From: Frankiales bacterium
GTDB taxonomy: Bacteria; Actinomycetota; Actinomycetes; JAFAQI01
NCBI GenBank assembly: GCA_025980465.1
Contig: JAICXJ010000001.1
Span: forward strand, 1-64,000
Reading direction: 5' to 3'
Length of the DNA: 64,000 bases
This document shows positions 18,913 through 36,913 of the stretch, one piece after another. The notes under the pieces were generated by a model that searched no databases, was not told the DNA's origin, and saw nothing but the letters and a program-made list of their open reading frames with translations. The position numbers and the translations under genes are program-made. Position 1 is the stretch's first letter; each line of letters opens with the position of its first letter.

Positions 18913-19905
18913 TCAGCGGCTCTGGTAGGCATTCAGTCGTGATCTCGCTCGACGAGTGGCAGGCCGGTGGGGCTCAGGCAGGCGGTGATGTCTTCGTGGA
19001 CCCCGCCGGGGGAGCCAGTCGACGAGCAACATGATCGCGCCAGGGAGGCTGGCAGCAAGTACTAGGACGCCGTACGCGACTGCGGCCGCGGCTCCCCGAG
19101 CCGCGCCGATGCCGGCCGCGGAGAACACCCACGCCGTCAGGGCCTCGCGCGGTCCCCAGCCGGCGATGCTGGGAAGGACCATGGCCAGCAGCGCGAGCAT
19201 GGCCAGTGGCAGCAGTCGTGACAGGGATGTGGTGGTGCCCACGGACTTAGCAGCGATCAGGAACGTGACGGTGTGGCCGACGACAATCACGGCCGAGGTC
19301 AGCCCGACCGTAGGCAGCGTGCTTCGGCGCAACACACCGTCGTGGATGTCAGTGACCACCGAGCCGCGGACCCGAGTCCACCAGGAAGCCGCGCCGCCCA
19401 GCTGTAGCCGACCCACCAGCACGATCACGGCCGCGGCCGCAACAGCCGCGAGTGCAACGAACGGCATCGACGAGCGGACCGGGGACGGCCACACCCCGAG
19501 GACGGCGACCGTCAGCAGAGCCTGCACGACCTGGCCGGCGGCGCGCTCCCAGACCACGGCTCGCAGGGCGCGGCTGACGTCATGTTCCGCCCGACCGTGA
19601 CTGACCCCGCGGTAGAGGTCTCCGGCGATGCCGCTCGGAAGCGTCAGGTTGAGGAACAGCGTCCGGTAGTACGCAGCGACCGCGGTGGAAAGCGATAGCC
19701 GCAGGCCGAGGCCGCGCGCGACGATCGTCCACCGCCACGCAGAGCACAACGTCGTGACGAACACGATGGCTGCCGCTGCCAGGAGCGTGCGGGCGTCGAC
19801 GGCCTTGAGGCCGTCGAGAAAAGGCCCGGTACCAATCCGCCAGATCACGGCCGCGAGAACCAGGACCGCGACCGCCGAACTCGCCCACCGACGAGTGCGC
19901 TTCAC
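18913..19905 (-). CDS. Lysylphosphatidylglycerol-synthase-type transmembrane protein (UPF0104/flippase-like)
   Basis: A 330-aa protein with about eight membrane helices, including SSAVAVLVLAAVIW, TLLAAAAIVFVTTLC, AVIVVGHTVTFLIAA and LLPLAMLALLAMVLPS. The conserved YYRTLFLNLTLPSGIAGDLYRG and AGWGPREALTAWVF motifs are those of the LPG-synthase TM/UPF0104 family, whose members flip or transfer aminoacylated or glycosylated lipids. GTG start at 19905, 23 bp after the methyltransferase stop; upstream in-frame sequence has no good start. Last gene of the minus operon SRPBCC, methyltransferase, flippase. The lipid substrate is unknown. Confidence 0.75.
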   Translation of the reverse strand: MKRTRRWASSAVAVLVLAAVIWRIGTGPFLDGLKAVDARTLLAAAAIVFVTTLCSAWRWTIVARGLGLRLSLSTAVAAYYRTLFLNLTLPSGIAGDLYRGVSHGRAEHDVSRALRAVVWERAAGQVVQALLTVAVLGVWPSPVRSSMPFVALAAVAAAAVIVLVGRLQLGGAASWWTRVRGSVVTDIHDGVLRRSTLPTVGLTSAVIVVGHTVTFLIAAKSVGTTTSLSRLLPLAMLALLAMVLPSIAGWGPREALTAWVFSAAGIGAARGAAAAVAYGVLVLAASLPGAIMLLVDWLPRRGPRRHHRLPEPHRPATRRARSRLNAYQSR

Positions 19906-19928
19906 GGCAGCATGGGACGGCCGCTCCG

Positions 19929-20639
19929 TTACGGCGTTCCGTCGCTTCGCAACTGCCGACTGCCGGTCACCGGGCCGCGGGCCCCAGCAGCGATAAAGGC
20001 GGTCCCGAAGCACATCTCGTCCCAAGAGACGTCGGTGAGGTCTCGCTGCATCGCGGTGCGGATCGCCTCCCACGGACGGCGCATCAGCCAGTCGTCAATG
20101 GCCGCGAAAGGCCGAACAGTCGCCGCCCCGACCTGCGTGAGCCACCGAGGCGTGGCGCCGGGAAGCTTGAGATCCAGCACGACCCAGCGACCGCCGTCGG
20201 ACAGCGCCGCCGCGCCCCGGCCGATGACCATTGCGGAGTCGGGCACCTGCGACAGGGCATAGGTCGACAGGATGGCGTCGGCCCCGGTCGGGAAGTCGAA
20301 CGCGGCCGCGTCAGCTTGCAGGAGGCTGACGTTGCGCCAGCCGTTCGCCTCAACCCGTTCCTGGGCGCGCGCGAGCATCGCATCGGTCAGATCGACGCCC
20401 ACGATCCGGCCCTCGGGACCGATCGCTTCCTGGATCAGCGCAAAGTTCAGGCCGGTGCCACACGCGACGTCGATCACGAAGTCCCCGTGCCGTAGGCCGA
20501 GCGCTCGTACGGCGCGCAGCCGTTGTGTCCGCTGGGGGTATCCGGGCGCGGGGTAGAGCCGAGAGGTGAAGTCGTAGTGCTTCGCCTTGTGTCGGTAGGT
20601 ATCGATCAGCCGCTCGCGCGTGACGTCGACGTGGCTCAT
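19929..20639 (-). CDS. SAM-dependent methyltransferase (UbiE/class I)
   Basis: A 236-aa class I methyltransferase. The SAM-binding motif I is VIDVACGTGLN (55-65), with an acidic VGVDLTDAML motif II and the post-I LQADAAAFDFP. N-terminal YRHKAKHYDFTSRLY resembles the UbiE/COQ5 group and lipid (phosphatidylethanolamine N-) methyltransferases. ATG at 20639 overlaps the SRPBCC stop (ATGA). With a flippase-like gene after it and a CDP-alcohol transferase divergent, a lipid head group or lipid-linked sugar is a plausible acceptor; that is inference. Confidence 0.82.
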   Translation of the reverse strand: MSHVDVTRERLIDTYRHKAKHYDFTSRLYPAPGYPQRTQRLRAVRALGLRHGDFVIDVACGTGLNFALIQEAIGPEGRIVGVDLTDAMLARAQERVEANGWRNVSLLQADAAAFDFPTGADAILSTYALSQVPDSAMVIGRGAAALSDGGRWVVLDLKLPGATPRWLTQVGAATVRPFAAIDDWLMRRPWEAIRTAMQRDLTDVSWDEMCFGTAFIAAGARGPVTGSRQLRSDGTP

Positions 20640-21178
20640 GGTCTGCTCCTCGACGGAGCGGTGCCGCCGTTGAGCTGCGCGCCGCCCTCCTCCAGCAGCA
20701 GTTCGAGCCGTCCGGGCGTTCCGGATTCAACCGCGGCCTTGATCGCGATCATCTCGATGTCGCTGACGCGCTGGATCCTCCGGCTGAACAGCCCGCGGGG
20801 GATTGCGCGCATCACGTTGCGCAGCTCAACTTCGATCCACATCATGGCGTCGGTCTGCTCACCGTCGAGCGGCTCGAGCTCCATGCCCCAGCGCGCGGCG
20901 GAAGTGCCCAGCGGCCCGGCGAACGCCATGCGGCAGGGCGCCTCGAGGGTGATCACTTGCTGCGACCGTGCGCGGCTCGTGCCTGCGATCCCCTTCGCCC
21001 GCTGGTTCAGTTGCGCCCCGATCTGGAGTGCGGTGCCTCCGTTCGTACGACATTCGAGAACCGTTGGCGCCCACTCCGGCCAGCGTCCGACGTCGCACAT
21101 GTACGTCCAGACGTCGTGGACGCTTCTGGCGATGGTGATGCGGCTCTCGGTCCTGAAACCCACGGGGCCGAATTTCAT
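20636..21178 (-). CDS. SRPBCC (polyketide cyclase/START-like) protein
   Basis: A 180-aa protein with the SRPBCC ligand-binding fold: ESRITIARSVHDVWTYMCDVGRWPEWAPTV near the start, a central EAPCRMAFAG strand and a long C-terminal helix (IEMIAIKAAVESG). These proteins bind hydrophobic ligands and sometimes act as cyclases. The ATG at 21178 (MKFGPVGF) is chosen over an upstream GTG. First gene of the minus operon; the 166-bp spacer to the divergent fusion gene at 21345 should hold both promoters. Second SRPBCC in the window is at 56000. Confidence 0.72.
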   Translation of the reverse strand: MKFGPVGFRTESRITIARSVHDVWTYMCDVGRWPEWAPTVLECRTNGGTALQIGAQLNQRAKGIAGTSRARSQQVITLEAPCRMAFAGPLGTSAARWGMELEPLDGEQTDAMMWIEVELRNVMRAIPRGLFSRRIQRVSDIEMIAIKAAVESGTPGRLELLLEEGGAQLNGGTAPSRSRP

Positions 21179-21344
21179 GGTCTGCACATTGGGACACCAC
21201 GGATAGCCGGCGCCGACGGTTCGATGAACCAGCGGCACGAACGCTGCGTGTCGTGTGGTGTGCGGCCATCGCTAAGACACGGCGCTCTGCCGTCCCAGCT
21301 GCCCGCGGCAGTCGACCATCTTCTTCCGGGCTGAAGCGTCGACG

Positions 21345-23783
21345 GTGCACGCCGCGCGTCCTGAAGCGCCGAACCCGGCGGTCCGCTCCGTCGACATTTC
21401 CAGCGTGCCGGCAGAGCGGCTGTGGGTCGGCCCGCTGTTCAGTCTCGTCGCCGCGAACGCGCTGTTCGCGTTGCTCGCAGCCACCGTGGGCCTCACCGTC
21501 GCGGGGTGGACGATCGGATTTGGGTACGCGCTCGCGACCGCGGCCGTTTTGTGGCGAGCGCTCGCTGCCAGCGGAGCGCTCGCCATCGGACCCGCGAATG
21601 CCGTCACCCTGGCCAGGAGCACTGTGGTCGCGGGCGTGGCGGCGATGGTCACCACGGCTGTCCAACGACCCGCTGCGACCACGACCATCGTGCTGCTCGC
21701 CGGCATCGCCCTGGCATTGGACGGCTGCGACGGGTGGGTGGCTCGGCGTACCCGGTCGGAGTCAGCGCTAGGCGCGCGTTTCGACGGGGAAGTCGACGCG
21801 TTTCTGATCCTCGTGCTCAGCGTGCAGGTGGCGCGGTCGCTGGCGTGGTGGGTGCTCGCGCTCGGTCTCATGCGCTATCTGTTCGGTGTCGCTGCCGTGG
21901 CGTGGCCGTGGCTCAGTGGAGCGCTGCCGGCGCGACCGTGGCGCAAGGGGGTCGCCGCCGTTCAAGGCATCGTGCTCACCGTCGCGGTGGCCGATGTTCT
22001 CCCTCGCAGCGCGGCTCTGGGGACGGCAGGTCTCGCGCTGCTGCTGCTGAGCGAGTCGTTCGGCCGCGATGTGTGGTGGCTCTACCGACATCGCAAGGAG
22101 TTTGCGGATCCGATCCCTCATCGCCGGCTCCGCGCCTTCATCTTCGGGGCCGCCACCCCTGTTGCGATCGTGCTGTTCTGGGTGGCCTTGGTCGGCCCCG
22201 ACCGGCAGAGCCAACTCAGCCTGACGACCCTCCTGCGGATCCCGCTCGAGGGCGTGGCGATCGTCGCGGTCGCGCTGGTCCTGCCGCCCAGGCTGAGGCT
22301 GGCGATGGCGGTGGTTGTCGGCTTCCTGCTCGGAGTGCTGACCGCCGTGAGGGTGGTGAATATCGGTTTCTTTGAGGTGCTTGACCGGCCGTTCAACCCG
22401 GTGACCGACTGGGGCCTCCTCAAGCCGGCATTCGGTGTCCTGAGCGACTCGATCGGCCGGACCTCGGCGCGGATGACGGAAGTCCTCGCGATCGTCGCCG
22501 TGCCGGTCGTGGTTCTGGCGGTCATCGCGGCAACGGTCGGTGTGACGCGATTCGCGGCTCGCCACCGCGCCCCGGCCGTGCGAGTGCTGGCCGGGCTCAG
22601 CACGATCTGGCTGGTCTCCCTCGGGTTCGGAGTCACGACCGGCAGCCGTCTTCCAGTTGACTCGCTGTCGGCAGCTCGGCTCACGGTCAACGAGGTCAGA
22701 TTGATCAACAGCGGGCTGCACGATCGGAGCGTTTTCCATGCCCAGCTTGCCGCGTTCGATCCCTACCGAGCCACACCGACATCCGGCCTGCTGGCTGGGC
22801 TGCGCGGCAAAGACGTATTGGTCGTCTTCGTGGAGAGCTACGGGCAGGTGGCCGTCGAGGGCACACCCTTCTCGCCAGCGGTGGACGGCGTGCTGCGTCA
22901 GGACACCGCCGCGTTGCAGGCCGGCGGGTTTGCTGCCCGATCCGCATTCTTGAGCTCGCCGACGTTTGGCGGATCGAGCTGGTTAGCGCACTCCACTCTG
23001 CAGTCGGGGCTGTGGGTGGACAACCAGCAGCGGTATGGCCAGCTCGCAAACAGCGGCCGGTTCACCCTCGCCGAAGCATTCAGACAGGCCGGCTGGCGGA
23101 CGGTTTTCGACATCCCTTCGAGCCCGAGTCCCTGGCCACAGGGGCAGCGGCTCTACAACTTCGACGCGATGTACGGCGTCAACAACGTCGGGTATCACGG
23201 GCCCCGCTTCAGCTACGCGAAGATTCCGGACCAGTACACGCTTGAAGCGCTGTACCGCCATGAGCTGCGGCCGACACATCGCCAGCCCGTCATGGCGGAG
23301 ATCGACCTCGATTCGAGCCACACACCGTGGGCGCCGCTCCCGAGCATGGTTCCGTGGCCGGACCTCGGTAACGGCACCATTTATGGACCGATGGCCAGCG
23401 AACGCCCGGGTCCATCCGTCGTGTGGCGCAGCGCCAGCAGCGTGCAGGCCGCCTACGGGCAGTCGATCCAATACTCGCTCACCGCGCTGACCTCCTTCAT
23501 CCGGCGGATTCACGACAACAACCTCGTGCTCGTCGTGCTCGGCGACCACCAGCCCGCCACGATCGTGAGCGGTGACACCGCCGACCATGACGTGCCGATC
23601 ACGGTCATTGCCCATGACCCCGCGGTCATCGACCGGATCAGCCAATGGCGATGGGATACCGGAATGCTCCCCAGCCCGCACGCCCCGGTCTGGCCGATGA
23701 GTGCCTTCCGCAACCGTTTCCTCGCCGCCTACGCCGGCTCGCCGGCCGAGAGCGCGACCGCCGGTACGCCGTCCAACGGATGA
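21345..23783 (+). CDS. CDP-alcohol phosphatidyltransferase fused to a sulfatase/phosphoglycerol-transferase-like domain
   Basis: An 812-aa membrane protein with two enzymatic parts. The N-terminal ~230 residues carry the complete CDP-alcohol phosphotransferase motif DGxxARx8GxxxDxxxD (D129, G130, A133, R134, G143, D147, D151). Five or more further helices span 265-430. From about 487 the alkaline-phosphatase-superfamily domain of LtaS-like sulfatases begins: VVFVESYGQ (494-501), SPTFGGSSWLAHSTLQSG around the expected nucleophile (538-555), SSHTPWAPL and VVLGDHQP with metal ligands. It could make a phospholipid and then transfer or trim a phospho-alcohol head group outside. GTG start; stop overlaps the next gene (ATGA). 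Confidence 0.8.
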   Translation: MHAARPEAPNPAVRSVDISSVPAERLWVGPLFSLVAANALFALLAATVGLTVAGWTIGFGYALATAAVLWRALAASGALAIGPANAVTLARSTVVAGVAAMVTTAVQRPAATTTIVLLAGIALALDGCDGWVARRTRSESALGARFDGEVDAFLILVLSVQVARSLAWWVLALGLMRYLFGVAAVAWPWLSGALPARPWRKGVAAVQGIVLTVAVADVLPRSAALGTAGLALLLLSESFGRDVWWLYRHRKEFADPIPHRRLRAFIFGAATPVAIVLFWVALVGPDRQSQLSLTTLLRIPLEGVAIVAVALVLPPRLRLAMAVVVGFLLGVLTAVRVVNIGFFEVLDRPFNPVTDWGLLKPAFGVLSDSIGRTSARMTEVLAIVAVPVVVLAVIAATVGVTRFAARHRAPAVRVLAGLSTIWLVSLGFGVTTGSRLPVDSLSAARLTVNEVRLINSGLHDRSVFHAQLAAFDPYRATPTSGLLAGLRGKDVLVVFVESYGQVAVEGTPFSPAVDGVLRQDTAALQAGGFAARSAFLSSPTFGGSSWLAHSTLQSGLWVDNQQRYGQLANSGRFTLAEAFRQAGWRTVFDIPSSPSPWPQGQRLYNFDAMYGVNNVGYHGPRFSYAKIPDQYTLEALYRHELRPTHRQPVMAEIDLDSSHTPWAPLPSMVPWPDLGNGTIYGPMASERPGPSVVWRSASSVQAAYGQSIQYSLTALTSFIRRIHDNNLVLVVLGDHQPATIVSGDTADHDVPITVIAHDPAVIDRISQWRWDTGMLPSPHAPVWPMSAFRNRFLAAYAGSPAESATAGTPSNG

Positions 23784-24547
23784 ACCAGGACGACCGGGCC
23801 CGATTCGACGCCGCCTTGCAACACGCGCGGCTTGTGGCCTACCCACCGGGCGAGTTCGCGGGCCAGGAGAGCTTCATGCGCGCCAGCGAGATCCTCTCGC
23901 TCGCCGGGCACGCCGGCATCGGACCGGGCGTGTCCGTACTTGACCTGTGCTGCGGAGTCGCTGGACCGGGACGGCTCATTACGCGTGAGCTCGGCTGCAC
24001 CTACCTAGGTGTCGACCGTAGCTCCGTCGCTGTTGCCCTGGCCGCAGATCGGGCCGGGGGGCTGCCCTGCCGTTTCCGCGTGTGCAGCGTGCCGCCCCTG
24101 CCGGACGGCCGCTTCGACGTGGTGTTGCTGCTGGAGACGATGCTGGCGTTGCCCGACAAGGCAGCGCTCGCCCACGAGGTGGCCGCCGCGTTACCGACCG
24201 GCGGTCGCTTCGCCTTCACGATCGAAGCAGGCGAACCGTTGACGGCGACCGAACGTGAACGGATGCCCGATGCCGACACGGTGTGGCTCACCCCCCTGTC
24301 GCAACTGCAGGCTGACCTGGACGCAGCCGGGTTCCAGGTGCGATGGCAGAGCGAGTGCAGCGAACAGCACCGCGACGTCGCCGAGTCCATGAGCCGCGCG
24401 CTGTGTGATGACGCACGGAACATCACGGCAGGCATCGGCCCGCAGGCGTTCGACGATCTGCTGATCGCGCACCTGCAGTGGGTCGATTGGCTGCGAACCG
24501 GGCGGGTACAGAAGTTCGCGGTGGTGAGCGAGAAAGTCGCGAGCTGA
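23780..24547 (+). CDS. SAM-dependent methyltransferase
   Basis: A 255-aa class I methyltransferase: motif I VLDLCCGVAGPG near 54-65, motif II YLGVDRSS near 76-83, then VVLLLETMLALPD and FAFTIEAGEPL. Cys-Cys in motif I and the LPDGRFDVVLLLETM segment resemble sarcosine/glycine and small-molecule methyltransferases. Translationally coupled to the CDP-alcohol transferase fusion by ATGA, so the two are expected to act together. The stop is 10 bp from the end of the convergent GTP cyclohydrolase gene. Acceptor unknown. Confidence 0.82.
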   Translation: MNQDDRARFDAALQHARLVAYPPGEFAGQESFMRASEILSLAGHAGIGPGVSVLDLCCGVAGPGRLITRELGCTYLGVDRSSVAVALAADRAGGLPCRFRVCSVPPLPDGRFDVVLLLETMLALPDKAALAHEVAAALPTGGRFAFTIEAGEPLTATERERMPDADTVWLTPLSQLQADLDAAGFQVRWQSECSEQHRDVAESMSRALCDDARNITAGIGPQAFDDLLIAHLQWVDWLRTGRVQKFAVVSEKVAS

Positions 24548-24557
24548 GCCGAGGTCG

Positions 24558-25232
24558 TCATCCGTTGCCGGGAGACGACGTCCTCGTCACGCCCAGGTCG
24601 ATGGTGTGCGCGCCGCGCCGTGCTTTTGCGGCGAGGTAGCGCACGTTGTCGCTCGAGAGGTGCACAGCCGTCGCGTCCTGCGCAACCACGCTGATCCCAA
24701 GCCGCTCGAGCTGCGATGCCTTGTCCGGATTGTTGCTGAGCAACCGCACGTGTCGTACGCCGAGGGCATGGAGCATCTGCGCTGCCACCGTGTAGTCCCG
24801 CTCGTCCTCCGCATGTCCCAGGGCGAGATTGGCTTCGTAGGTGTCCAACCCGCCGTCCTGCAGCTCGTAGGCGTCGACCTTGGCGTAAAGGCCGATGCCG
24901 CGTCCTTCTTGGCGAAGGTAGAGGAGCAAGCCACCCGCGGCCGACACGCGTTCGACCGCCTCGCGAAGCTGCGCGCCGCAGTCGCAACGTTGGCTACCGA
25001 ACACGTCGCCGGTGAGGCATTCGCTATGGGGACGGACCAGTGGGACCGCGGCGACCCGCAGCGGTCGGGGAACCGGCGTGGCCCAGGCTCCGAAGCCCAG
25101 CGCGAGGTGTTCCCGGCCGTCGACGAGACCGTCAAAGGTGATGACCCGGCTTGCTGCGACGAAGCCGTCGGGGAACCGCAGCGGAAGTCGGACCTGGGTG
25201 CGAACCGCCGCGGGCGGACAAGTCGGGCTCAT
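24558..25232 (-). CDS. ribA: GTP cyclohydrolase II (RibA-type), stand-alone
   Basis: A 224-aa protein without the RibB half that actinobacterial housekeeping RibBA carries. The zinc site is Cys72, Cys83 and Cys85 in SECLTGDVFGSQRCDCG; the GTP-handling LRQEGRGIGLY and LDTYEANLALGH motifs are intact. It should convert GTP to 2,5-diamino-6-ribosylamino-4(3H)-pyrimidinone 5'-phosphate with loss of formate and pyrophosphate. Coupled by ATGA to the RibD-C-like reductase that precedes it. No other riboflavin genes are near, so this looks like a dedicated pathway copy. Start at 25232 (MSPTCPP) drops a spurious Arg-rich extension. Confidence 0.9.
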   Translation of the reverse strand: MSPTCPPAAVRTQVRLPLRFPDGFVAASRVITFDGLVDGREHLALGFGAWATPVPRPLRVAAVPLVRPHSECLTGDVFGSQRCDCGAQLREAVERVSAAGGLLLYLRQEGRGIGLYAKVDAYELQDGGLDTYEANLALGHAEDERDYTVAAQMLHALGVRHVRLLSNNPDKASQLERLGISVVAQDATAVHLSSDNVRYLAAKARRGAHTIDLGVTRTSSPGNG

Positions 25233-25939
25233 CGCGCGACCCGCAACACCTGCTCGTCGCAGGCCTGCGACAGCGCGTACCGCAGCAGCACGACGTCGCC
25301 GATCTGACGCACCTCCACCAGTGGCGCGCGTCGCCCGGGCTTCCACGGAAAGGTGCCCGCATTGACGAACCGATGTGCCTGCGGGTCGCCCACGAATAGC
25401 GGAGCGACGACGAGCTGCAGCTCGTCGGCGACGTCGGCGGTGAGGAATTGCGTGTGCACGCTCCCGCCGCCTTCCACGAGCAGCGCGCAGATGCCACGTT
25501 GATGCAGGTCTTCGGTAATCCAGCGCATGGCGACCTCGGGGCCCGCGTCGATCACGGTTGCGAGGTGCTCGAGCCGGGCGCGTGTGGCCGGTACGGCTGG
25601 GCTGGCGCAATAGACCAGCTTCTCCACCTCGCCCGCAGTGAAGAAGACCGACTCGGGATTCAGGCAGCCGCTGTTGGTGACGGTCACTTTGACGGGCGAC
25701 GCGGCAAGGCCGAGGGCGACACGTTGCCGTCGTCGCTGGGCGGAGCGGACCAGCAGTCGCGGGTTGTCGTTGCGCACCGTCGCGGCGCCGACCATGATCG
25801 CGTCGCAGTGGGCACGTACCCCATCGACGCGGTCGAAGTCGGCCTCGTTGGACAGCGGGAGGCGGTTGATCGAGGGACAGTCGATGTAGCCGTCGATGGA
25901 CATGCCGCAGCTGAGCACGGTGTACGGGCGGTCAGCCAT
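25229..25939 (-). CDS. RibD C-terminal domain-type pyrimidine reductase
   Basis: A 236-aa dihydrofolate-reductase-like protein: PYTVLSCGMSIDGYID at the start, VDGVRAHCDAIMVGAATVRNDNPRL near 41-65, the VEGGGSVHTQFL loop near 155-166 and VAPLFVGDPQA after it. This is the reductase half of RibD without the deaminase, as in the archaeal/fungal order of riboflavin synthesis where the GTP cyclohydrolase II product is reduced directly. Its overlap with ribA supports acting on that product. ATG at 25939 preferred. A 76-bp spacer separates it from the methyltransferase gene upstream. Confidence 0.85.
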   Translation of the reverse strand: MADRPYTVLSCGMSIDGYIDCPSINRLPLSNEADFDRVDGVRAHCDAIMVGAATVRNDNPRLLVRSAQRRRQRVALGLAASPVKVTVTNSGCLNPESVFFTAGEVEKLVYCASPAVPATRARLEHLATVIDAGPEVAMRWITEDLHQRGICALLVEGGGSVHTQFLTADVADELQLVVAPLFVGDPQAHRFVNAGTFPWKPGRRAPLVEVRQIGDVVLLRYALSQACDEQVLRVAR

Positions 25940-26015
25940 GCGCGGCACCCGCCGGCGAACCGATCGGACCCATGCCGATTGACACGATCCGAAGCGGGCG
26001 CAGGTTCATAGCGGC

Positions 26016-26843
26016 TTATCGGCGAGGGAACGTCAACAGGTCGGCGTGATGGACGACGGTCAGAACACGGCCCGCTGCCAGTTCGCGCCGCCGTCGGTCG
26101 ATATACGCATCGAGAGCCAGGTCGGGGCGGATCTCACGAGCGGCACCGACCCATCCGTCGAACCAGGCTGCGGCGAGCGTCGCGTCGGGTGGGCCGAGGC
26201 GCCACGGGCTCGGCCGGACGTGCACGTCGGCGCCGGACCGGCGGAACAGGCTGGTCGCTACCGAAACAGCGTCTGGGCCGAGCAGGATGTCGCCGCGCGC
26301 CAGCCGACCTTGATGCGCGTTGAACGCCGCGGTGACCACCCGGTCGATCGGGTCGGGTGGTGTCAACGCGACTTGGCCGATCACCGTCAACGTGAACAGG
26401 GCCGGGCGTTCCGCCTCGATGCAGGCTCGCGCCAGCGCATCCAGATCCGATGCGGTGAGGATGTCGAGCAGCGCCGAGGCGGTGATGAGGTCCGCGCGAC
26501 GCAGCTGGGCGGCGCGCAACTGGGCGATGTCAAGGCGGTGCGTCTCGACCGTGACCGGGCGGCCGTCGGCAGCGCGGACGCCGGTGGCTCGGGCAGCGGC
26601 GAGGTCGAGCAGCGTGGTGTCGACGTCGTACAAGGACCAATGTTGCGGGCCGTTCAGACGAGGGGCGAGCCAGCGCGTCATCGAGCCGGTTCCGCAGCCG
26701 AGGTCGTGTACGGCGATCGGCCGACCGGTGGGAAGGTGACGGCGGAGCAGATCGGCCAGGTTCTTGGAGCGAGCTGCGGCGTCGGCCGCCTCTCGCTGGT
26801 CCAGCCACCCCGCGCCGACCCGCACCGGTGCGCCCAGGGTCAT
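26016..26843 (-). CDS. SAM-dependent methyltransferase
   Basis: A 275-aa class I methyltransferase: motif I VHDLGCGTGSMTRWL near 43-57, motif II WSLYDVDTTLLDLA, and a DLITASALLDILT strand. The C-terminal third (WRLGPPDATLAAAWFDGWVGAA) is Trp-rich and unlike common small-molecule methyltransferases. Starts at the ATG overlapping the glycosyltransferase stop (ATGA). Third methyltransferase of the 18.9-29.3 kb block; its acceptor may be the sugar or pterin-like product of the neighbours. Confidence 0.78.
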   Translation of the reverse strand: MTLGAPVRVGAGWLDQREAADAAARSKNLADLLRRHLPTGRPIAVHDLGCGTGSMTRWLAPRLNGPQHWSLYDVDTTLLDLAAARATGVRAADGRPVTVETHRLDIAQLRAAQLRRADLITASALLDILTASDLDALARACIEAERPALFTLTVIGQVALTPPDPIDRVVTAAFNAHQGRLARGDILLGPDAVSVATSLFRRSGADVHVRPSPWRLGPPDATLAAAWFDGWVGAAREIRPDLALDAYIDRRRRELAAGRVLTVVHHADLLTFPRR

Positions 26844-27910
26844 GCCGCAACCTCGGCGATGACACCGGCAAGACGGTGGGCAGTAGCCGACCACGCGGGC
26901 AGCGTCGAGCGGCGCAGGGCGGCGTCATGTCGGAGGGCAGCACGTAGTGACCCATCCTCAAGCCAACGACGGATCGCCGTCGCGAGGGCGGTTGAATCAT
27001 TCGGAGGGATCAGCAGTCCCGGTCGATGCCCGTTGCGGACGTGACCGATCGTGTCAGGGACACCGCCGACCGCAGCCGCCACCACCGGGACGCCGCGCGC
27101 GAGCGCCTCGGTCAGGACCATCCCGTAGGTCTCGCCGCGCGACGGCAACAGGAGCAAGTCCGCGGACGCATAAAGACGGTCGAGGTCCGAGCCGACAACG
27201 GGGCCGGTGAAGATGATCCGGTCGGTGAGCCCATGACTCGCCGCTCGGCGCTGCAACTCAGCGGCGAAGGTCGGTTCTCGGTCCAGCACGCCGGCGCAGG
27301 TGCATTGCCAGGACAACGCCGTGAGGGTCGACAAGGCGGTGAGCAGCAGGTCGAGTCCCTTGTGCCACGTCACCGCGGCGACGCAAAGCAGTCGCCCGCC
27401 GAGGGGCGTCCCGGCGACCCGCGGCGCGGCGTCGACGCCTGGTGCCGCCACGTGAACGCGGCGCGGGTCCAGGTTGTCGTACATGTGAAGCAGCAGCCGA
27501 CGCGTCCACTCGCTGGTGACGATTGTCGCCGACGCTGCGGTGAGGGCGGAGCGCTCTTGCTGGTGTGCACCCGCGAGCCCGTGCCCTGGTGGTTGGTGGC
27601 CCAGCGGCAGATGCATCAGGACCACCAGACGTAACCGTGCCGCCGCCCGGACCACGACCGATGCAGCCGTGCCGGCAAACAAGCCGTCGATGATGACGGC
27701 GGATTGATCAGGGATGCGGGCGAGCGCACCACCGAGTACCCGTTCAGCCGCTTCGTCGGGACGCGGCCATTGCCCGCTTATCCGGTGCTCGTGAATGTGC
27801 CATCCGCTGTCTGACAGGAACTGGATGACCTTACGGTCGTAGACGTTGCCACCGGTCGGACGGGCGGGGTCGTCGATGCTTTCCGGCACCACGAAGTGGG
27901 CCGTCCTCAT
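26840..27910 (-). CDS. Glycosyltransferase family 4 (GT-B fold)
   Basis: A 356-aa retaining glycosyltransferase. N-terminal acceptor domain begins [26 protein letters not shown]; the C-terminal donor domain has [62 protein letters not shown], including the E-x7-E motif that binds the nucleotide sugar. Coupled by ATGA to the PTPS-like gene upstream and to the methyltransferase downstream. Together with GTP cyclohydrolase II and the PTPS-like protein it suggests a glycosylated heterocycle. Donor and acceptor unknown. Confidence 0.87.
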
Positions 27911-28305
27911 AGCGACCGCTGGTAGGTAGCCCAGGCGATGTGCGACTCGCGCAACGTGACAGTGATCCCGCAGAGCTCGCGGGCCCGGTCGCCCAGTTGG
28001 CCGGTGTGAACGCGCACGGCCAGCCGATCGGCGACGAGCTGTGCCAGTGCCTCGGTCGACGTGTTCTGACCTGCCAGTTCCGGCTCGTCGTCGAGGTTGC
28101 GGTACGTCAGGCCGCCGAGCACTTCGTATAGCGCCGCGCTGGCTTGGCCGATATCGACGACCAGGTTGTCGCTGTCGAGCGACTCGCGTTGAAACGTGGC
28201 GTCGACAACGTACGTCGCACCATGCAGCCGTTGCGCCGGCCCGAACACCTCGCCCTGGAAGCTGTGCGCGACCATCATGTGGTCGCGCACCGTCACGCTG
28301 AACAC
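27907..28305 (-). CDS. 6-pyruvoyltetrahydropterin synthase/QueD-like protein with altered active site
   Basis: A 132-aa T-fold protein. Relative to QueD the first zinc His (His14) and second (His28 in RLHG) are present, but the third position is Ala30 instead of His, and the catalytic Cys position is Ala24 ([11 protein letters not shown] in place of CGRLHGHS). A C-terminal Glu in TLRESHIAW matches the substrate-binding Glu. The family makes 6-pyruvoyl- or 6-carboxy-tetrahydropterin from dihydroneopterin triphosphate; with these changes a different reaction is likely. GTG start; 4 bp after the MDR gene and overlapping the GT4 start. Confidence 0.75.
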
Positions 28306-28309
28306 CGCG

Positions 28310-29293
28310 TCACGACTCGTCGCCGTAGACGATGCTGTGGCACAGTGCGGGCAGCGTCCCGTCGGCGAGCCGGCTCATCACCTCGGGCAGCTGCCGGAAC
28401 GGCGATGCCCCGGTGAGCAGTGCGTCGAAGGCTGGGTCACGCAGCAGGTCGAGCGCGAGTGTGAGGCGCTCACGTCTGCTGCGTCGGCCGCGTCTCGCGG
28501 CGGCCACCGCACCGACCTGGCTCGCGCGGATCGCGAGTCGCCGAGAGTGAAAGGCCTCGCCTAGTGGCAGCGTCACGGGCTGGTCGCCGTACCAGCTCAG
28601 GTCCAGCACCGTGCCGTCGTCAGCGAGCAGCTCCAGAGCGCGCTGAAGCCCCGTCGACGTCGCGGTGGTGTGCACGACCAGGTCGCAGTCATCCGGTGCG
28701 CCGTCTGGGTTCGTGAACTCCGCCCCCATGGCGAGCGCGACCTTCTCCCGGTCGGGATCGACATCGACCAGGGTCACCACGACGCCTGGGATCGGCACCA
28801 GCAGCCGCGCGACGCTCGCGCCGACCATCCCCGCGCCCATCACCGCGATGCGGTCGCCGACGAGTGGCGCGATGTCCCACAGCGCGTTCACGGCCGTCTC
28901 GATCGTGCCCGCGAGTACGGCACGCTCGATCGGGACCTGCTCCGGGAGGAGGACGACGGAGTCCGCCGGCACGACATAACGGGTCTGATGCGGATACAGG
29001 CAGAACACGGCGCGATCTTGTAGATGCGCGGGCCCGCGTTCGACCACACCGACGTTGAGGTAGCCGTACTTGACCGGCCCGGGGAACTCGCCGTCCTGAA
29101 AGGGCGCGCGCATCGCGGCGTACTGAGACGGTGGCACCCGGCCCTGGAAGACGAGGGTTTCGGTGCCGCGGCTCACCGCCGAGATCAGCGTCCGCACGAC
29201 GAGGTCGTCCGGCCCGGCCGGCGGGAGGGCGCCTCGCCGAATCTCGCCGACGCCGGGTTCGCAGGTCCAAAACGCGAACACGTCCGGGGCCAC
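28310..29293 (-). CDS. MDR-family dehydrogenase, zinc-ligand-poor (BchC-like group)
   Basis: A 327-aa medium-chain dehydrogenase: [19 protein letters not shown] where usual MDR enzymes have a zinc Cys (GxCHSD), then [35 protein letters not shown], and the Rossmann motif [12 protein letters not shown]. The loss of the catalytic zinc Cys and of the structural Cys cluster places it with zinc-independent or atypical members, such as the bacteriochlorophyllide dehydrogenase-like group. First gene of the minus operon leading to PTPS-like, GT4 and methyltransferase. The upstream 29294-29457 spacer (164 bp) holds no gene. Confidence 0.8.
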
Positions 29294-34983: not shown

Positions 34984-35564
34984 TCGTCGTCGAGCGGACT
35001 ACAGATCCGGCATGGCTTGAGCTTTGTGGTCTCGGCGTTGACCTTCTTCAGGTCGGTGCGGCCGCTCACTGCGGCGCAGTCCGCGCGGTGGAAGATCGAC
35101 CCGTTCGGTGTCGCGACGAAGCTCTGCGCCGGGGCCGCGGACGCCCTGATGTTGCCGTCGTCGTTGGTGACGGTGCCGCCGGAGAGCAGGGTCTCGAGCC
35201 GGGCGAGCGCGTCGGCCAGATCCCTGGTCTGGGTGCGCGACTCCCGGATCCGGATCGTCTGCCAGTAGGCGAAGTACACGAAGCCGCCGGCGAAGACCAG
35301 CGCGAGACCGAGAATCCCACCCGAGATCAGGTAGTCGTTCTGCTCGAACTGTAGCGGCGTGCTGGAAGCGCCGGCCCAGCCCAGGATGATCAGTACGACG
35401 CCGAGCGGCATGAGAACACCGCCGGCGATGAGCATCATCCGTTCGGTGTTCACGCCGGCCGCTCGGGTCCGCATCGTGCGGACCTGCTCGGACAGCCGGC
35501 TCATCCGCCCCGACGACGACGCCGATCCGGACCGATCGCCGAGCAACTCGGTCGAGGTCGTCAT
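34980..35564 (-). CDS. Two-helix membrane protein with C-terminal Ada-like zinc-binding motif
   Basis: A 194-aa protein: a disordered Ser-rich N-terminus, helices MMLIAGGVLMPLGVVLIILGW and YLISGGILGLALVFAGGFVYFAYW, a coiled-coil-like stretch (RTQTRDLADALARLETLL), and a C-terminal module FVATPNGSIFHRADCAAVSGR with a later PCRIC. The Cys/Cys-x2-Cys arrangement resembles the Ada metal-binding domain, found in other actinobacterial membrane proteins of unknown role. Overlaps its neighbours on both sides (ATGA). No assigned function. Confidence 0.65.
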   Translation of the reverse strand: MTTSTELLGDRSGSASSSGRMSRLSEQVRTMRTRAAGVNTERMMLIAGGVLMPLGVVLIILGWAGASSTPLQFEQNDYLISGGILGLALVFAGGFVYFAYWQTIRIRESRTQTRDLADALARLETLLSGGTVTNDDGNIRASAAPAQSFVATPNGSIFHRADCAAVSGRTDLKKVNAETTKLKPCRICSPLDDE

Positions 35565-36913
35565 GAGCCCTCCTCAAGACGGCAGCCAGGTCCCGAAGCC
35601 TCGAGCACCCGATCCGGTAGGCGTTTCATACCAAAGGCGAACAGGCCGGCGAGGATGAGGCCCAAGATGACCCAACCAGCCGCGAGGCCGCCCGGCAACT
35701 TGAATGCCGCGGGCGCCAGCTGCGGCGGCACGGCGACCACCGGCGATGTGGTGGCGGCCGGCGCGGGTGGGACCGCGCCACCGGAGGACACCGGCGGCAC
35801 GCCAGACCCGCCGGTCGCCGTCGAAGGTCCGGCGGGGGCAGTCGGCGGGGAAGTGCTCGGCACCGACGGCGCAACGTAGCCCGGCGACGCACTCGCGTTG
35901 ATGCTGGCGCCGCCGAACACCAGGACCATGCCGGTGTCGTTGAAGTTCGCGGCGTACGCCGGCTTCGTGATCTCGACGATGAGGACACCGGTGTCGAGGT
36001 GTACCGATGGACCCTTGATCTGCTTGGTGCCCTGCACCAGGAAGATGCGGATGCCCGCGGCCTTCAGGGCGTTGTTCACCGTCTTGCTCAATGTTGCGAG
36101 CACGGCCTTCGGAAGCAGGCCCTTGCCCGAGACGGCGATGCCGTTCTGATCGACCGTCACGTTGACACCGGCGACCTTCAGTCCGGCGACGACGGTCGAA
36201 ATCGTGCCTTGCGAGTGCGTCCCGTCCGACACCGCGTGAGCAGTGGACACGATCGAGCCGATTGACAGCACGCCACCGATCGACGTGTTGAGGACCGCGG
36301 AGTGCGCATCGACGACGACGTTGTTCGCGTTCTGCTTGATGACGGTCGACGCTTTGATGTTGCCGAACAGCTGCTCGAGTGTCTTGTTGCTCGCCGAGCC
36401 GATCTGCGACGTGGCGCTGACCAGGTTCGGCTTGGAGACCGCCTGCATCGTGATGACGCCCTGGTTCATCGTCACGGTGTCGTTGCCGGACGTGGTGGGC
36501 GCCTCCGCCTTGTACGGGTCGTTGAGCTCGTTCTCCAGGCTGGTCGGCAGCCCCTTGATGCCGAGTACGCCGAGGGTCGAACCACCGGCGGCGCCGGTGC
36601 TGCCCGGCCAGAAGATCGACGTGACCGCGTGTCCGGTGCCTCCGGCTCCGAGTTGCGAGAGCGCGTAAGGCGCCTCCGCTTCGACGTCCTCACCGGAGTG
36701 GGAGTACAACGGCGCCCGCAGCCCGGCAGCAGTGGCGTTCACGTTGACCGAACCGAGCGGAGTCTTGCTCGGCGCTGTGGCGACCGGCGATGCACTCGCA
36801 TGCAGCCCCGCCGTGACCGGTCCCATCGCGAACGTCGCGACTGCTGCAGTTGCGACTGCGACTCGGCGGCGGGTGCTGAACCGCCTCGGTGGTGCGCCTG
36901 GCGACTCGCTCAT
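35561..36913 (-). CDS. Secreted, membrane-anchored surface protein
   Basis: A 450-aa exported protein. Residues 1-45 form a basic start plus hydrophobic stretch ending near ASASP (signal peptide). A long beta-rich body follows with repeated TVDQNGIAVSGKG-like strands and no Cys, then a Pro/Ser/Ala/Thr linker near 345-400 and a C-terminal helix WVILGLILAGLFAFGM with a basic tail. The body resembles choice-of-anchor or fibronectin-like wall proteins, but no family is certain. It lies between the LivF gene and the two-helix protein with ATGA overlaps, so it may help substrate capture for the importer. Confidence 0.65.
   Translation of the reverse strand: MSESPGAPPRRFSTRRRVAVATAAVATFAMGPVTAGLHASASPVATAPSKTPLGSVNVNATAAGLRAPLYSHSGEDVEAEAPYALSQLGAGGTGHAVTSIFWPGSTGAAGGSTLGVLGIKGLPTSLENELNDPYKAEAPTTSGNDTVTMNQGVITMQAVSKPNLVSATSQIGSASNKTLEQLFGNIKASTVIKQNANNVVVDAHSAVLNTSIGGVLSIGSIVSTAHAVSDGTHSQGTISTVVAGLKVAGVNVTVDQNGIAVSGKGLLPKAVLATLSKTVNNALKAAGIRIFLVQGTKQIKGPSVHLDTGVLIVEITKPAYAANFNDTGMVLVFGGASINASASPGYVAPSVPSTSPPTAPAGPSTATGGSGVPPVSSGGAVPPAPAATTSPVVAVPPQLAPAAFKLPGGLAAGWVILGLILAGLFAFGMKRLPDRVLEASGPGCRLEEGS

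Follow-up and report, generated by a model that had tools for sequence, protein, structure and literature searches.

A recurrent gene cluster with a predicted GTP-derived, methylated and glycosylated product in an actinomycete and several other phyla

We describe a cluster of 11 genes at positions 18913-29281 of a 64-kb window (the whole stretch of DNA analyzed, 64,000 nucleotides from contig JAICXJ010000001.1 of the Frankiales bacterium assembly GCA_025980465.1). The core of this cluster is a zinc-less MDR-fold dehydrogenase, a PTPS-like protein, a GT4 glycosyltransferase and a class I SAM methyltransferase (MTc), often joined by a CDP-alcohol phosphotransferase (CDPPT), a flippase-like protein (FLIP), a stand-alone RibD C-terminal reductase (RibDC) and a GTP cyclohydrolase II (RibA). 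The set recurs, with its order shuffled, among Actinomycetota, Alpha-, Beta- and Gammaproteobacteria, Acidobacteria, Gemmatimonadota, one myxobacterium and one haloarchaeon. We are confident that these genes form one functional cluster. Our reading, to which we assign a probability of roughly 0.6, is that they build a GTP-derived pyrimidine or dihydropterin that is methylated, glycosylated, phosphodiester-linked and probably membrane-associated.

Co-occurrence and distribution of the cluster genes

The MDR and PTPS profiles were searched independently over an identical set of 395 genomes of the class. Each found strong matches in 57 of the 395, and these were the same 57 genomes, with none discordant. 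The two genes lay less than 500 bases apart in 55 of 58 copies (one further copy, at a contig break, could not be judged). Because the orthologs share exactly the same genomes and adjoin one another, their grouping is far beyond chance. The cluster was present in 3 of the 12 sampled genomes of the window's own family, and its distribution is thus patchy. The closest relatives of the source genome (3.45 Mb) that have complete clusters are actinomycetes.

A scan of GTDB genomes confirmed at least 587 relatives, of which the best 80 loci were kept; the query was headed by a Thiodictyon sequence, and the loci that matched it best make an uneven sample. From these and additional genome and plasmid loci, 73 were well covered (more than 7.5 kb of flank on each side). 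Among them, we found the MDR gene in 71 (97%), GT4 in 69 (95%), MTc in 68 (93%), CDPPT in 63 (86%), FLIP in 51 (70%), RibDC in 49 (67%) and RibA in 43 (59%), together with a creatininase-family gene in 35 and an alkaline-phosphatase-superfamily (AP) domain in 21. At least one pyrimidine-forming gene was present in 68. An earlier note on this DNA, made from its sequence, had proposed that three sub-operons belong together and that gene neighborhoods be compared. This comparison bears the proposal out: the MDR-PTPS-GT4-MT, RibDC-RibA and CDPPT(-AP) blocks and the flippase-like gene co-recur across phyla. Since gene order varies by lineage, the association is not the mere inheritance of one arrangement. 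The RibA/PTPS/GT4 grouping that the note mentioned for Streptomyces is also real, and a search for further recurrent neighbors returned chiefly local or Streptomyces-specific families.

Plasmid copies, some of them partial, were found in Streptomyces, Thiodictyon, Methylosinus, Agrobacterium, Microbacterium, a Rhodobacteraceae strain and Haloarcula. On balance, we favor a horizontally spread locus dedicated to the biosynthesis of a GTP-derived product. The Thiodictyon plasmid copy (L041) has transposase genes on its flanks, consistent with recent mobility, and a Streptomyces linear plasmid (L046:12001-12399) carries the PTPS-like gene but no other part of the cluster. Cytochrome b561 genes lie within the Thiodictyon (L041:14528-15085) and Agrobacterium (L043:15011-15544) clusters, with matches in four loci overall, hinting at a redox role for the cluster product.

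All 11 genes of the window were mapped by open reading frame (ORF) and Pfam/NCBIfam profile searches, as follows.

18913..19905, minus strand: FLIP, flippase-like / LPG_synthase_TM integral membrane protein (PF03706, 4e-27; 51/73 well-covered loci)
19929..20639, minus: MTa, accessory class I SAM methyltransferase (PF13649, 2e-16; also in loci L033 and L037, mainly near relatives)
20636..21178, minus: accessory SRPBCC / Polyketide_cyc2 protein (PF10604, 3e-11; also in locus L037)
21345..23783, plus: CDPPT-AP fusion, a CDP-alcohol phosphotransferase, membrane linker and LtaS/sulfatase-type AP-superfamily domain (PF01066, 1e-10); CDPPT domain at about 21459-22094, AP domain at about 22785-23735, both plus
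23780..24547, plus: MTb, accessory class I SAM methyltransferase, translationally coupled to the fusion (PF13649, 4e-10; 12 loci)
24558..25232, minus: RibA-type GTP cyclohydrolase II, Tyr-type (PF00925, 4.5e-55)
25229..25948, minus: RibDC, stand-alone RibD C-terminal reductase (PF01872, 1e-34)
26016..26843, minus: MTc, core class I SAM methyltransferase (PF13649, 5e-9; 68/73 loci)
26840..27910, minus: core GT4 glycosyltransferase (PF00534, 1.5e-32; 69/73 loci)
27907..28305, minus: PTPS-like protein, SCO6650 ortholog (PF01242, 6e-21; PDB 3d7j, 8e-59)
28310..29281, minus: core MDR-fold dehydrogenase (PF00107, just 20.5 bits; SRGTE replaces the Cys motif)

Every gene named in the earlier note was found where it had been placed, and the MDR protein is as atypical as claimed; the SRPBCC gene had been overlooked. 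The three methyltransferases of the note are all present and MTc is core, but MTa and MTb, like the SRPBCC gene, fall outside the general core and recur only among near relatives and at a handful of further loci. The gene pairs described as coupled are indeed so, because five stop/start overlaps of 4 bases join RibDC/RibA (25229-25232), PTPS/GT4 (27907-27910), GT4/MTc (26840-26843), fusion/MTb (23780-23783) and SRPBCC/MTa (20636-20639). Likely starts differ slightly from those of the longest ORFs (25232 for RibA, about 19905 for the flippase-like gene). The cluster was delimited at 18913-29281 because the flanking genes tested mostly lack counterparts in related loci: none was found there for an alpha/beta hydrolase, a cNMP protein and a 280-aa ORF, and an acyl-CoA ligase has one in only a few. 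Farther along the window, a 450-aa ORF (35561-36913) adjoining branched-chain amino acid transporter genes had no Pfam match.

Entry from GTP

The window RibA keeps the three zinc Cys residues and has Tyr at the position of E. coli Tyr105 (alignment to E. coli 2bz0 and motif scan), and it scores 250 bits against a cut-off of 148 for NF001591. Elsewhere, this Tyr is replaced by Met (19), His (8), Cys (1) or Ile (1). SCO6655, the GTP cyclohydrolase II of the Streptomyces coelicolor cluster, presumably has Met here, and work by Spoonamore and colleagues in 2006 reportedly found that it halts at the formylated intermediate FAPy. The Streptomyces form of the cluster pairs such a FAPy-type (non-Tyr) RibA with a creatininase-family gene; the window cluster has neither. 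All 29 non-Tyr RibA genes had a creatininase-family neighbor, compared with 7 of 22 Tyr-type genes (Fisher test, P = 5e-8, a value that overstates the association because the RibA tree holds only about two independent losses of Tyr).

The direction of this correlation matches the chemistry, because in Sinorhizobium and Brucella an enzyme of the creatininase family is proven to act as a FAPy formamidase (PMC9478397). We infer that the creatininase meets the requirement of a non-Tyr RibA for such a formamidase. In addition, the Haloarcula cluster carries GTP cyclohydrolase III (GCH III; PF05165, 3e-81) in place of RibA, a non-homologous enzyme that also forms FAPy (PMC9478397). Taken together, the correlation and this substitution make the conversion of GTP to 2,5-diamino-6-ribosylamino-4(3H)-pyrimidinone 5'-phosphate (DARPP) a likely entry, and on these comparisons of sequence we regard a GTP-to-pyrimidine first step as very probable. 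In the window, a single Tyr-type RibA likely suffices and would open GTP directly to DARPP; other clusters would use a FAPy-type RibA with the creatininase-family formamidase, or the archaeal GCH III.

The RibDC protein would then reduce the ribosyl moiety to a ribityl side chain. It is nearest to archaeal and fungal DARPP reductases (PDB 5xux, 3e-29; 6p8c, 5e-22), and TIGR01508 (9e-33) is its top NCBIfam match, albeit at 113 bits against a cut-off of 186. In two Streptomyces-type genomes (L166:5945-7126 and L167:6317-7504), a RibD_C reductase is fused to a C-terminal deaminase, the reverse of the normal RibD order. This fusion lies outside the cluster, beside a second RibA, and its reductase half resembles the cluster RibDC.

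RibA and RibDC could also be a backup supply of riboflavin or F420 precursors that happens to sit beside an unrelated glycolipid cluster. They are the only cluster genes of known chemistry, and the RibDC profile is that of the DARPP reductase of archaeal riboflavin and F420 synthesis. However, 68 of the 73 loci, drawn from several phyla, have pyrimidine-forming genes alongside the core, GCH III substitutes in Haloarcula, and the housekeeping riboflavin genes lie elsewhere in the same genome, where contig C44 holds RibBA and lumazine synthase, and contig C20 a longer RibD_C frame. A backup role is therefore very improbable. The genome as a whole has six matches to the RibD_C family and two genes for GTP cyclohydrolase I (GCH I). 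Within the 64-kb window, we found no further GCHII, RibD-C or lumazine synthase genes, which upholds, for these families, the earlier statement that no other riboflavin genes are present. The note had also allowed that RibA and RibDC might act solely in housekeeping; because RibBA, RibD_C and lumazine synthase are encoded separately, they do not appear to. In S. coelicolor, the expression of SCO6655 correlates negatively with predicted riboflavin flux (PMC2853524), and that of SCO6652, which gene order suggests is MTc, increases some 17- to 20-fold at the aerial and spore stages (log2 4.3 and 4.1; PMC3610822).

Predicted later steps and the form of the product

The PTPS-like protein is a full-length ortholog of S. 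coelicolor SCO6650 (PDB 3d7j, 8e-59) and the sole PF01242 protein of the source genome. We compared its residues with E. coli QueD, using a hand-entered reference sequence, and with alignments of 16 sequences and 96 loci. Two zinc His residues are kept and Ala30 stands in for the third; Ala24 takes the place of the catalytic Cys, and Thr67/Tyr68 that of the Asp/His pair. The 96-locus alignment shows the same losses across the bacterial family, whereas the pterin-anchoring Glu (Glu120) is invariant in all 16 aligned sequences. The structural work on 3d7j reportedly describes a zinc site and triad lost in the same way and a pterin pocket that is kept. The haloarchaeal protein (Haloarcula, L047:10001-10375) is unlike the bacterial family in that it keeps the zinc HxH pair and has a Glu near the place of the Cys.

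Public annotation calls this protein a 6-carboxytetrahydropterin synthase, which would make it an ordinary QueD/PTPS enzyme producing a queuosine, folate or biopterin-type cofactor from the product of GCH I. Its being the only PF01242 gene of a genome that encodes GCH I elsewhere is in keeping with that view. We nevertheless rejected this identity and give it hardly any credence, given the lost active-site residues and scores far under the QueD and PTPS cut-offs (34.6 against 89); moreover, we found no GCH I or queuosine genes in the annotated clusters.

By sequence, the MDR protein has SRGTE where the catalytic zinc motif usually lies, and no Cys or His there. Its AlphaFold2 (AF2) model (pLDDT 88) best matches the folds of secondary-alcohol and polyol dehydrogenases. 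A BchC identity was rejected (TIGR01202, 50.5 against a cut-off of 291 bits). On our reading, the zinc-less MDR would oxidize a hydroxyl of the ribityl chain, while the PTPS-like protein may grip the heterocycle through its conserved Glu and aid either a side-chain rearrangement or a dihydropterin-like closure. A ketone at C2' from a polyol-type oxidation could close on the 5-amino group to give a dihydropterin.

Closure to a pterin ring is doubtful all the same. The product may instead stay a monocyclic ribityl-diaminopyrimidine, with the MDR oxidizing the chain for conjugation only and the PTPS-like protein acting as a binding scaffold. Every entry enzyme yields a monocycle, and in the PTPS-like protein none of the residues that serve catalysis in its known relatives is left. 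In contrast, its conservation as a binding protein of the pterin fold, with the pterin-anchoring Glu kept, suggests a bicycle at some stage. We hold a monocyclic end product to be less likely than not. The most specific form of the proposal is a dihydropterin made independently of GCH I: RibDC would reduce C1' of DARPP, the MDR would oxidize C2', and closure on the 5-amino group would take place in the zinc-less PTPS-fold protein. The resulting dihydroneopterin-type ring would be methylated, glycosylated and attached to a phospholipid. We consider this scheme improbable as a whole. If true, it would represent a new class of membrane-bound pterin in several bacterial phyla and haloarchaea.

The presence of GT4 and MTc in the core implies glycosylation and methylation, and we think it probable that the product carries both modifications, with MTc methylating and GT4 glycosylating the heterocycle. 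The CDPPT would next link the heterocycle by a phosphodiester bond to an alcohol activated by CDP, for which CDP-diacylglycerol is the likeliest candidate. This would yield a lipid-anchored product that the flippase-like protein and the AP domain may move or decorate on the outer side of the membrane. The CDPPT motif DxxDGxxARx8Gx3Dx3D is intact (D126-D129-G130-A133-R134-G143-D147-D151), as it is in 21 of 21 homologs across phyla. In the AP domain, E497, S545, H659, D734 and H735 are invariant in the homolog alignment; PF00884 (Sulfatase) scores 24.2 against a cut-off of 25 in the window, and 17 of 20 homologs match it at E < 0.01. We consider the two domains linked because they are fused in actinomycetes and in the betaproteobacterium Derxia, and adjacent elsewhere.

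Whether the product is attached to lipid or membrane is, in our estimate, evenly balanced. A soluble pyrimidine or pterin glycoside could arise if the CDPPT transfers not a lipid but a small CDP-alcohol head group or a polyol phosphate, and the membrane proteins serve only in export. This agrees with the matches of CDPPT to choline/ethanolamine phosphotransferases, with the weak match of the AP domain to the lipoteichoic acid primase family (4uop, its nearest solved relative) and with the solubility of pterin glycosides made by GT4 enzymes such as UDP-glucose:tetrahydrobiopterin glucosyltransferase, itself a weak match. The presence of the flippase-like gene in 70% and of CDPPT in 86% of the 73 loci points to the membrane, and we hold a soluble product to be unlikely.

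Several points weigh against the proposed membrane-associated product and its pathway. Most cluster copies in Streptomyces and Actinomadura lack RibDC, and the ribosyl reduction step therefore may not be universal. The creatininase correlation draws on the few losses of Tyr noted above, and seven Tyr-type RibA genes have a creatininase as well. The nearest solved relatives of CDPPT include choline phosphotransferases and phosphatidylserine and phosphatidylglycerophosphate synthases, leaving the donor ambiguous, and an AF2 model of its fusion with the AP domain, at pLDDT 41, was set aside. Finally, the pathway is predicted from gene content and comparison. Gene content fits the methylated, glycosylated, lipid-linked pyrimidine or pterin product of the earlier note; its chemistry, lipid linkage and ring closure included, we infer.

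The cluster, about 7 to 11 genes in size, is present in approximately 14% of the actinomycete genomes sampled and also occurs in members of several further phyla. The survey sets its core apart from its optional genes and suggests a rule for the first step (a Tyr-type RibA alone, or a FAPy-type enzyme with a formamidase). Two Streptomyces proteins studied as curiosities, SCO6650 (a PTPS fold without its active site) and SCO6655 (a GCHII with an altered product), are now tied to one pathway. Knowing the product would explain both and might bring to light a new cofactor or lipid associated with membranes.

Comparison with known systems

In the open-licence literature, we found no papers on the cluster or its product beyond transcriptome tables; a published product is possible. 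The nearest known counterpart is S. coelicolor SCO6649-SCO6655 (gene numbers deduced from gene order), where SCO6650 (3D7J) is the ortholog of the window PTPS-like protein and SCO6655 is the GTP cyclohydrolase II. Close Streptomyces loci (for example L077, PTPS 98% identical to SCO6650) hold MDR, PTPS, GT4, MTc, FLIP, creatininase, RibA and CDPPT. The window differs from them: its RibA is Tyr-type and creatininase is absent, RibDC lies adjacent, CDPPT and the AP domain are fused, and the MTa, MTb and SRPBCC genes are additional.

With the archaeal entry to riboflavin and F420 (GCH III, ArfB and ArfC), the cluster would have in common the first intermediates, a putative creatininase-family deformylase and a probable DARPP-type reductase. 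Unlike that entry, it has no later riboflavin or F420 genes, and its creatininases fall far under the ArfB cut-off (36.9 against 180). Cyanobacterial pterin glycosides share the idea of a pterin and a GT4 enzyme (tetrahydrobiopterin glucosyltransferase, weak match to 5zer, 9e-5), but they begin from GCH I and a true PTPS, and to our knowledge those systems have no CDP-alcohol transferase or GCHII. The BrbF pathway of Sinorhizobium and Brucella likewise uses creatininase-family deformylation of a GTP cyclohydrolase intermediate, which there serves riboflavin (PMC9478397).

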